NCBI GenBank assembly: GCA_028284225.1
Contig: JANQSD010000022.1
Coordinates: forward strand, 227,777-291,776
DNA length: 64,000 nucleotides
Reading direction: 5' to 3'
DNA from: Arenicellales bacterium
GTDB taxonomy: Bacteria > Pseudomonadota > Gammaproteobacteria > Arenicellales > JAHEKD01
The first letter of the stretch is position 1; the number at the start of each line of letters is the position of its first letter. Positions 60,521 to 63,197 of the stretch are shown here, piece by piece. Under the pieces are notes generated by a model that had not been told where the DNA came from, did not search any database, and worked only from the letters and a program-made list of their open reading frames with translations. The translations under genes were made by a program, and so were the position numbers.

Positions 60521-62236
60521 TCAAGCTGATTTTGCATCAACAGATTGAATAGCTGAGTTGGCGTTGATTGCATTGTTGATAGCGCGCAGTACGGCCGTCA
60601 TCGAAGCCGTCATAATATCGCTATCCAGGCCCACACCAAAATAATACTGATTTTCGACTTTGATCTGGATGTAGCAAGCGGCTTTAGCATCTGAGCCGGC
60701 GCCAATCGCATGTTCATGGTAGTCGATCAGGTTAAAGCTCAAGTCATAATGATTTTTTAATACGCTAACGAATGCTTCAATTGGACCGGAACCTGAACCG
60801 CTTAATGTTTGCTCGGTTCCATCTGCTTCTTGTAGGCGCACGCTAATGGTATCGGCCTGCTTTTGCACATCCTGACTGATCGTATAAGCAAGCAAAGAGA
60901 GTGGCTTATCGCAGTTGATGTAAGCATTCTGGAAACTTTCCCAAATAACATGATTGGGCACTTCCGTTTCTGTTTCTTCCGAATATTTTTGAATCACATG
61001 GCTAAAATCAATCTGTAGCGCTCGTGGCATTTTGAAGCCGAAATCCTGTTCCATGATATAAGCGACACCGCCTTTGCCGGATTGACTGTTAATGCGAATC
61101 ACGGCTTGGTAATCACGGTTTATATCTTTCGGATCAATCGGCAAATAAGCAATATCCCAGGGATCATCTGCTTGATACTCGTTCAGGCACTTTCGAATCG
61201 CGTCCTGATGAGAGCCACTGAATGCTGTAAAAACTAACTCACCGACATACGGATGACGCGGATTCGTATCGATTTGGGTGCAGTATTCAGCACAGCGGCG
61301 GATTTCGTCCATATTGGCGAAGTTCAAGCCCGAGTCGATACCTTGGCTGTACATATTCATGGCCATAGTAACAATATCCAGGTTGCCGGTACGTTCGCCA
61401 TTGCCGAACAAAGTGCCTTCGACACGATCAGCACCAGCCATCAAACCAAACTCAGAGGAAGCAATACCAGTGCCGCGATCATTATGGGTGTGCAGGCTGA
61501 CAATTAAATTTTCTCTGTTCTTTAAATGACGGCACATCCATTCAATTTGATCGGCATAAACATTAGGTGTGGTCATTTCTACCGTTGAAGGCAAGTTAAT
61601 GATTACCTTTTTATCTGCAGTCGGTTGCCAAACATCAATGACAGCATTGCAAACTTCGGCCGCATAATCCATTTCAGTGCCGGTAAAACTTTCCGGTGAA
61701 TACTGGAATGTCCAATCGGTACCGGTTTGTTTGTCGGCATATTCTTTTACCCATTGTGCACCTTGCACAGCTATGTTGGTAATGCCCGCACGGTCAAGCC
61801 CGAATACATGCTTGCGTTGCACTGTAGACGTTGAGTTATAGACGTGCACAATGGCCTGCTTGCAACCTTGCAGTGCTTCATAAGTACGCTCAATCAAGGG
61901 TTCACGAGCCTGCACCAACGCCTGAATAGTGACATCATCAGGAATGCGGTTTTCTTCAATGATCATGCGGGTGAAGTCGAAGTCAGGTTGAGAAGCTGCC
62001 GGAAATCCGATTTCGATTTCTTTAAAGCCGATTTCAATCAGCAAATCCCATAGCCGTGACTTTTGTTCCACATTCATGGGTTCAACCAATGCCTGGTTGC
62101 CGTCACGTAGATCAACACTGCACCAGATCGGTGCCTGCTCGATCATGTTATCCGGCCAGGTACGATCAGGCAGATTTAACGGCGGATAAGGCCGATATTT
62201 GCGATGGTCGAAATTCTGTTTTGTAGTTGCTGACAT
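60521..62236 (-). CDS. leuA: 2-isopropylmalate synthase
   Basis: A 571-residue LeuA of the longer type. It condenses 2-oxoisovalerate with acetyl-CoA, the first committed step of leucine synthesis. The catalytic TIM barrel shows WCSVDLRDGNQALVEPM, EIGFPAASQPDFDF and SLHTHNDRGTG (metal histidines). The C-terminal ~130 residues form the leucine-feedback (LeuA_dimer) domain. UUUUAGGA precedes the ATG and is complementary to an upstream leader hairpin loop. A leucine-rich leader peptide is encoded just upstream. No other leu gene lies in this window. Confidence 0.96.
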   Translation of the reverse strand: MSATTKQNFDHRKYRPYPPLNLPDRTWPDNMIEQAPIWCSVDLRDGNQALVEPMNVEQKSRLWDLLIEIGFKEIEIGFPAASQPDFDFTRMIIEENRIPDDVTIQALVQAREPLIERTYEALQGCKQAIVHVYNSTSTVQRKHVFGLDRAGITNIAVQGAQWVKEYADKQTGTDWTFQYSPESFTGTEMDYAAEVCNAVIDVWQPTADKKVIINLPSTVEMTTPNVYADQIEWMCRHLKNRENLIVSLHTHNDRGTGIASSEFGLMAGADRVEGTLFGNGERTGNLDIVTMAMNMYSQGIDSGLNFANMDEIRRCAEYCTQIDTNPRHPYVGELVFTAFSGSHQDAIRKCLNEYQADDPWDIAYLPIDPKDINRDYQAVIRINSQSGKGGVAYIMEQDFGFKMPRALQIDFSHVIQKYSEETETEVPNHVIWESFQNAYINCDKPLSLLAYTISQDVQKQADTISVRLQEADGTEQTLSGSGSGPIEAFVSVLKNHYDLSFNLIDYHEHAIGAGSDAKAACYIQIKVENQYYFGVGLDSDIMTASMTAVLRAINNAINANSAIQSVDAKSA

Positions 62237-62309
62237 GGTTCATTCCTAAAAGTCTGTAAGTTTGGTTTTTAACTGTGGCGGTTAGGAACTGGCCGCCGGG
62301 TACCACATT
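62237..62309 (-). promoter_or_regulatory. leuA leader hairpin with anti-Shine-Dalgarno loop
   Basis: On the leuA strand, GGCGG (62297-62293) and CCGCC (62281-62277) form a stem whose loop carries UUCCUAA (62288-62282). That loop is perfectly complementary to UUAGGAA (62249-62243) covering the leuA ribosome-binding site. No U-run follows the stem, so control is more likely translational than by termination. Confidence 0.6.
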
Positions 62310-62393
62310 CTAGACCCGAAGACCGATGACTAGGCCTAGGCTCAGCAGTAGTAAGAGGCTGGTAGTGTTAGTGTGTGTGTTGAAAATATTCAT
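62310..62393 (-). CDS. leuL: Leucine-rich leader peptide of leuA
   Basis: A 27-residue peptide, MNIFNTHTNTTSLLLLLSLG followed by LVIGLRV. It has eight leucine codons, five in a row (CTC, TTA, CTA, CTG, CTG), including rare ones, plus valine and isoleucine. It ends 73 bp before leuA. This is the expected form of a branched-chain amino-acid attenuator: ribosome stalling on leucine codons would change downstream RNA folding. A weak AGG lies 10-12 nt before its ATG. Confidence 0.85.
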   Translation of the reverse strand: MNIFNTHTNTTSLLLLLSLGLVIGLRV

Positions 62394-62487
62394 GTTACTT
62401 GACCTGTTGGTGTGTAAGTGCCCTTGAACTGCTTAGAGCAGGCCAAGTAGTAGAGTGTTGTTTAAGGACACTATATTCATAGTTGTA

Positions 62488-62517
62488 ATGCTAGTCTGTA
62501 TCCGCTTTTGTTGTCAA
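62488..62517 (-). promoter_or_regulatory. Probable leuA leader promoter
   Basis: On the minus strand, TTGACA (62517-62512), an 18 bp spacer and TAGCAT (62493-62488) form a plausible sigma-70 promoter. It lies about 95 bp upstream of the leader-peptide start. Confidence 0.5.
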
Positions 62518-62535
62518 GCATCAAATAAACGAATC

Positions 62536-62815
62536 GTCATTCCGAGCGAGCGACAAGCGAACCGAGAAACCTGTATGGTTTAGCTTCTGATCGGATTAAT
62601 GTAGCTGACGCTTAATACCCGAACAGTCTTATGGAGATCCTCACGCCACTTTGTGGCTCAGGATGACACAGTATTGTCGTTCCGAGCGAGCGACAAGCGA
62701 ACCGAGGAATCTGTATGGTTTAGCTTCTGATCGGATTAATGTAACCGACGCTTAATGCCCGAACAGTCTTATGGAGATCCTCACGCCACTTTGTGGTTCA
62801 GGATGACACAGTATT
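62536..62815 (+). repeat. Two tandem 140 bp repeats (62536-62675 and 62676-62815)
   Basis: Two nearly identical 140 bp units each start GTCATTCCGAG or GTCGTTCCGAG and end at CACAGTATT. Each contains the CTGATCGGATTAATGTA core and a GCCAC-TTT-GTGGC hairpin flanked by ATCCT/AGGAT. A third copy in the same orientation lies at 63246, beyond the GIY-YIG gene, and an inverted one at 2298. Confidence 0.95.
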
Positions 62816-62894
62816 GTCGCTCTCTCGGGATGACACTAGCTTAAGAATCTTGATGATAAGATATGTATTCGATTAAAAACGGAATCTGAGTATC

Positions 62895-63197
62895 ATGGAT
62901 GATAAATCGTTCTATATCTATATCCTGACTAATTGTAATAACACGGTTCTTTATACAGGTGTTACGAATGATTTGATGCGAAGAGTTTTCGAGCATAAAA
63001 ATCACGTCATTAAAGGCTTTACAGACAAATATAATTGTACAAAGTTGGTTTATTTTGAATCGACATCATGCATCAACTCGGCGATTACTAGAGAGAAACA
63101 ACTCAAGGGTTGGCGTAGAGCGAAGAAAGAATCTCTGATTAGTTTTAAAAAACCCGAAGTGGATCGATTTATCAGAGAACTGGTATTGAAAGGGTAG
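62895..63197 (+). CDS. Small GIY-YIG nuclease-domain protein (paralogue of 12550-12840)
   Basis: A 100-residue single-domain GIY-YIG protein. YIYILTNCNNTVLYTGVTN is the GIY-YIG motif, LMRRVFEHKNHVIKGFTDKY and the Glu in SAITREKQLKGWRRAKK complete the catalytic-type set. It differs clearly from the copy at 12550 but shares the layout. It is flanked by 140 bp dispersed repeats, tandem upstream and single downstream, all in the same orientation. The role is unknown; the context suggests a link to repeat spread or maintenance. Confidence 0.9.
   Translation: MDDKSFYIYILTNCNNTVLYTGVTNDLMRRVFEHKNHVIKGFTDKYNCTKLVYFESTSCINSAITREKQLKGWRRAKKESLISFKKPEVDRFIRELVLKG

Follow-up and report, generated by a model that had tools for sequence, protein, structure and literature searches.

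A putative leucine-sensing leader with a stop-codon hairpin and pseudoknot upstream of leuA, and a candidate output in its connecting loop

Introduction

How could a run of leucine codons upstream of leuA govern this gene if no terminator lies between them? The question is raised by the leuA locus of a 64-kb stretch of DNA (hereafter the window, to which unprefixed coordinates refer), where the gene starts with the ATG at 62236 on the minus strand. The original prediction was that access of ribosomes to the leuA ribosome-binding site is controlled by stalling in a 27-codon leader with five consecutive leucine codons. We indeed read such a leader, ORF2, at 62393-62310, with the leucine run at 62357-62343 (Table 1). 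The predicted lack of a U-run was likewise borne out, as a terminator scan of the leuA leader found nothing resembling a terminator on the minus strand and no intrinsic terminator. An Rfam 15 scan of the leader region and of the entire window returned zero family matches, and the same scan of the loci of 18 relatives returned a single match, a tRNA. We describe the leader below by comparison with leuA leaders of other bacteria and by modeling of its folds.

Table 1. Features of the leuA locus (window coordinates)
Feature	Position	Strand	Basis or remark
leuA, 2-isopropylmalate synthase (long-form), 571 aa	60521..62236	-	NF002991 875 bits, TIGR00970 763 bits, both above cut-off
Shine-Dalgarno (SD) of leuA, UUAGGAA, complementary to the anti-SD	62243..62249	-	AGGA core 62247-62244
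Pseudoknot strand GCCACA, partner of 62307-62302	62274..62279	-	11 nt downstream of P2
GGCGG/CCGCC hairpin, incompatible with P2 and with the pseudoknot	62277..62297	-	present, -7.2 kcal/mol; no comparative support as main structure
Pseudoknot connecting loop L3, AGUUCCUAACC, 11 nt, holding the anti-SD UUCCUAA (62288-62282)	62280..62290	-	
P2, 3' strand, ACCCGGCGGCC	62291..62301	-	P2 -17.6 kcal/mol, z -2.9
Pseudoknot strand UGUGGU within the P2 loop	62302..62307	-	position and pairing match the family
ORF2, downstream leucine leader, MNIFNTHTNTTSLLLLLSLGLVIGLRV*	62310..62393	-	27 sense codons
P2, 5' strand, GGUCUUCGGGU	62314..62324	-	covariance-model match 62339-62290; family covariation
Run of five Leu codons, CTC TTA CTA CTG CTG, of ORF2 (predicted stall site)	62343..62357	-	sequence
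C-rich, G-poor rut-like stretch from behind ORF1 to the Leu codons of ORF2	62344..62421	-	composition
H1 hairpin, CUUGGCCUGCU-CUA-AGCAGUUCAAG, ORF1 stop codon UAA at the tip	62423..62447	-	-10.8 kcal/mol, z -1.7
ORF1, upstream leucine leader, MNIVSLNNTLLLGLL*	62433..62480	-	6 Leu of 15; tandem leaders also in relatives
Promoter-like TTGACA-18-TAGCAT	62488..62517	-	10 of 12 matches in a consensus scan; by itself no proof of function

Results

Two leucine leaders precede leuA in tandem

Of 904 ORFs in the window that start with ATG and span 8-45 codons, only four are leucine-dense (five Leu in six codons), and two of these four, ORF1 and ORF2, are arranged in tandem just upstream of leuA. The leucine codons of the leaders exceed chance expectation, and the rare codons CTA and CTC make up 7 of their 14 leucine codons, compared with 15.7% in genes (p=0.003). 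Each leader enters a hairpin that holds its own stop codon, H1 in the case of ORF1 and P2 in the case of ORF2. An upstream leucine leader with a stop hairpin is a trait of the alpha- and gammaproteobacterial members of the family described below, and it is present here as ORF1 with H1; an H1-like hairpin surrounds the stop codon of the first leader at six other loci (L037, L041, L044, L111, L130 and L132). At three further loci, a hairpin of the upstream-leader type (CUACGACUG...CCCGG...CGGGG) was found about 91 bases (L123 and L128) or about 243 bases (L024) before leuA, with no match to the P2 model. These loci raise the possibility that either half of the tandem can exist without the other.

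The promoter-like sequence places the predicted transcription start at about 62483-62480, at or beside the ATG of ORF1, so that ORF1, going by the promoter match alone, may be leaderless. Immediately beyond the leuA promoter on its upstream side, a repeat of about 140 bases is found in two copies, arranged head to tail (62536-62836, plus strand); they start near the motif TTCCGAGCGAGCGACAAGCGAACCGAG, which the whole genome has in these two places only. The repeats are adjoined by a gene for a small GIY-YIG domain protein of 100 aa (62895-63197, plus strand).

The P2 hairpin belongs to a family of leuA leaders

LeuA relatives came from three sources: the order, the class and a set of named genomes. 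In many of them GGUCGUCGGGCC-UAG...GCCCGGUGGCC comes after a leucine leader, and the window has the hairpin P2 (62324-62291), whose loop (62313-62302) contains the ORF2 stop codon UAG and whose stem has one mismatch. Thirteen alpha-, beta- and gammaproteobacterial leuA leaders, with the window left out, were aligned (alignment A2) and served as the source of the covariance model R1. In A2, 97% of the cells of P2 are paired and five pairs show double-sided changes, whereas the pairing reaches at most 55% when P2 is slid along the alignment. The sole match of R1 in the 64 kb of the window lies at 62339-62290 on the minus strand (28.6 bits, E=2.4e-4), and its sole match across the 4.1-Mb genome is again the leuA leader (E=0.015). 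None of the other genomes in a set of 109 from the order contained a match. In samples of the phylum and the class, every strong match was located directly upstream of leuA. The window's own match drops out of the phylum and class searches, which used stricter filters and cut-offs, and we accordingly regard the window as a diverged member of the family.

Two weak R1 matches in the class (L198 and L199) were set aside, there being no leuA match at these loci. At two other loci (L173, 581-690, and L178, 585-700), the P2 loop has no stop codon and the leader frame reads through (GRRAMETWQPAGR... and GCRAMDPWQPGSR..., respectively) towards leuA.

These results bear on the plainest explanation of the locus, a constitutive leader in which leucine-rich ORFs and hairpins occur by chance and regulate nothing. 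The restriction of the element to one genome of the order would suit it, but the covariation in the family, the strict link to leuA and the leucine codon statistics all speak against it, and we give it hardly any credence.

The P2 loop has a downstream pairing partner

The P2 loop and nucleotides 62279-62274 can form an H-type pseudoknot. Members of the family have GUGGC in the P2 loop, directly behind the stop codon, and GCCAC a few nucleotides past P2, and the rule that the P2 loop pairs 3-12 nt downstream of P2 also describes the window. Of 32 members, 27 have a perfect 5-bp partner of the loop. The two partners change together, to GCGGC/GCCGC (L037, L111 and L153), ACGGC/GCCGU (L161 and L187) or GCGCC/GGCGC (L154). 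The MAFFT alignment misplaced the 3' strand, and the co-change was judged by a swap test: among the 13 non-betaproteobacterial members, 10 had their own partner, as compared with 3.5 expected with swapped partners (p=2.5e-4). The pairing UGUGGU/GCCACA of the window, which reaches p=0.075 when judged alone in this sequence, was counted because it is placed where the family has its pairing.

The hairpin that the original prediction put at the center, GGCGG/CCGCC, can be read in the window, as GGCGG (62297-62293) is complementary to CCGCC (62281-62277). As the key structure, however, it clashes with the conserved pair of P2 and the pseudoknot, since 62297-62293 are also needed by P2 and 62279-62277 by the pseudoknot. 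Among the candidate structures, P2 and the predicted pseudoknot alone have comparative support.

The connecting loop is complementary to the Shine-Dalgarno sequence

The pairing of UUCCUAA (62288-62282) with UUAGGAA (62249-62243) over the SD, to which the original prediction had drawn attention, was confirmed and comprises 8 bp if a G-U pair is included. Shuffled sequences gave seven Watson-Crick pairs to the SD in 3% of cases (118 nt shuffled) or 1% (the 32 nt after P2), and an anti-SD of this length was found for 3 of the 33 genes scanned in the window, leuA among them. The complementarity thus exceeds chance at best weakly. Its conservation was checked, and it was not found at that place in distant relatives. 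The best LeuA identity elsewhere in the order, the class and the named genomes is about 60%, no close relative having been found there, and the only other genome of the genus yielded no leuA match; since the relatives compared are this distant, their lack of the anti-SD is not decisive. The SD complementarity may be a lineage-specific output or a product of chance.

In an arrangement built on the GGCGG/CCGCC hairpin, the loop UUCCUAA would form a pseudoknot with the SD under ample leucine, and stalling would lead to P2 instead. Its H-type geometry is good, with a 5-bp stem, helices that adjoin without a gap and an A-rich loop of 27 nt. However, relatives show nothing that clearly and consistently corresponds to this stem; in them the 3' partner (GCCAC or GCCGC) pairs with the P2 loop. 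Moreover, the computed fold with P2 keeps UUCCUAA on the SD, so this switch by itself would leave the SD closed. We consider such an arrangement improbable. The broader proposal of stalling-controlled access to the ribosome-binding site is still a good one in view of the leucine leader, the absence of a terminator and the anti-SD, but the hairpin was not retained as the key structure.

A model in which the pseudoknot holds the anti-SD away from leuA

We propose that leucine is sensed in cis at this locus by an element of the LEU type (see Discussion), with an output through L3, an explanation that, taken as a whole, we regard as evenly poised. Its two halves differ in strength. The leader is likely a leucine-responsive, ribosome-mediated sensor that works with no intrinsic terminator, as judged from its sequence and that of its relatives. 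Masking of the SD by L3 is about as probable as not. According to this model, a ribosome would halt on 62357-62343, just before P2, when Leu-tRNA is scarce, and P2 and the pseudoknot would stay folded. In the folded state L3 with its UUCCUAA would be stretched along P2, out of reach of the SD, and leuA would be translated. With ample leucine, ribosomes would reach the stop codon and repeatedly open P2, upon which UUCCUAA could pair with UUAGGAA and leuA translation would fall. ORF1 and H1 probably add another sensing step that is built in the same way.

Folds computed with no pseudoknot mask the SD in every state, its mean unpaired probability being 0.27-0.46 (0.32 in the stalled state). Imposing the pseudoknot, by blocking its strands and loop, raised this mean from 0.32 to 0.61. 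The modeled unmasking of the SD depends on the imposed pseudoknot and describes the effect it would have if formed; it is not proof of its formation. The pseudoknot helix and the SD helix have similar computed strengths (-7.1 and -7.3 kcal/mol, respectively), so the switch may be weak.

A different output could act on transcription. In Rho-dependent attenuation, plentiful leucine would let Rho load on 62421-62344 and end transcription ahead of leuA, whereas a ribosome halted on the leucine codons, at the end of this stretch, would block Rho and let transcription proceed; the pseudoknot would then shape pausing or Rho access, and the SD complementarity would be incidental. In this stretch C exceeds G by 18 over 78 nt, a value reached by only 0.11% of the stretches scanned in the window. 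The bias extends to the family, with a median percentile of 0.09 and 16 of 28 members within the top tenth of their own loci. The lack of an intrinsic terminator in the window's leader and of a conserved anti-SD also favors this explanation, and Rho has been suggested for terminator-less cys operon leaders by Seliverstov et al. (PMC1262725). Nevertheless, a rut site is only weakly indicated by base composition, the C-rich, G-poor stretch is missing from L124, L041 and L044 among the family members, and the Rho model needs no conserved base pairing past the leucine codons. We regard a Rho-based output as a serious rival, albeit on balance an unlikely one, to the output through L3.

Relatives lacking the element

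A LeuA tree joins the window, as sister, with a clade of 37 rows that lack the element; the grouping has an SH-aLRT value of 100, and the window's branch is long and its exact place unsure. The element may have been lost in the sister clade or gained in the lineage of the window. Three LeuA relatives inside this clade, none with the leader element, have a gene for an Lrp/AsnC-family regulator that is divergent from leuA and adjoins it (L006, 886-1374, minus strand; L033, 2277-2762, minus strand; L117, 3407-3901, plus strand). The presence of these genes suggests that leuA is controlled there by a protein instead of a leader.

Discussion

Translational attenuators of the erm type offer a parallel to the proposed output step, as ribosome stalling in the leader peptide governs access to the downstream ribosome-binding site. 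In the model presented here, however, the signal would be uncharged Leu-tRNA rather than an antibiotic, and the anti-SD would be carried by the loop of a pseudoknot. The Leu_leader (Rfam family RF00512) has in common with the window the principle that a leader peptide with leucine codons controls leuA, but the window has no terminator/antiterminator pair, U-run or Rfam match. This transcription attenuator of leuABCD is known from enterobacteria and Shewanella (PMC2659441). In Streptomyces lividans, leuL1 encodes a leaderless leucine-rich peptide before leuA, with no terminator (PMC8079986). It is a single leader, whereas the leaders of the window are in tandem and the leaderlessness of ORF1 is deduced from the promoter match only. 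A search of the open-licence literature found no paper on a proteobacterial leuA pseudoknot.

The LEU element, predicted before actinobacterial leuA genes by Seliverstov et al. in 2005 (PMC1262725), shares with the window a leader peptide with a leucine run before leuA, a hairpin enclosing the stop codon, a pseudoknot from the loop to a downstream segment and the lack of a terminator. In our analysis of actinobacterial leuA leaders, the leucine run, the stop-codon hairpin and the downstream pairing of its loop were found in 23 of 25, and the leucine run matched an SD-like segment over at least 4 Watson-Crick bp in all 25, with most of the matches being longer. The window differs in its tandem leaders and its stem sequence. 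The base stem between leucine run and SD has no equivalent here, the best match being 5 bp with one G-U, and the anti-SD lies in the connecting loop of the pseudoknot instead of the leucine codons. As two features of the LEU element are found in the window and the third is not, we file the leader as a variant of that kind and not as a LEU element. Searches of the actinobacterial loci with R1 gave weak matches, none of which was confirmed as a LEU pseudoknot. Common descent is therefore not shown: the topology is shared, but R1 does not convincingly find the actinobacterial leaders.

Mutations of leader codons in the Streptomyces LEU element did not behave as in classical attenuation, which is why a protein-binding RNA was proposed (PMC1262725). 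The equivalent explanation for the window, in which a regulator binds the pseudoknot and the leader peptide is secondary, has this proposal as its precedent; the leucine runs, the over-use of rare codons, the tandem leaders and the stop codon in the loop point instead to a ribosome as the sensor, and we judge binding of a regulator very improbable.

With a ribosome as the likely sensor, the findings suggest how a stalling-based device could work with no terminator. For the puzzling LEU element of Actinobacteria, which in 2005 had no settled mechanism, they supply proteobacterial counterparts with covariation support, some of them in cultivable genera (Massilia, Duganella, Janthinobacterium and Herbaspirillum). 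These counterparts could found an Rfam-style family; none in Rfam matches the element of the window. We also put forward, tentatively and at somewhat less than even confidence, that a widespread, previously undescribed proteobacterial leuA leader RNA shares ancestry with the LEU element and is maybe as old as this LeuA branch, the sensor having been kept while the output changed or an Lrp/AsnC-type regulator took over instead. If this is true, the outputs differ among lineages: leucine codons mask the SD in Actinobacteria, the loop of a pseudoknot does so here, and elsewhere Rho perhaps takes this part.
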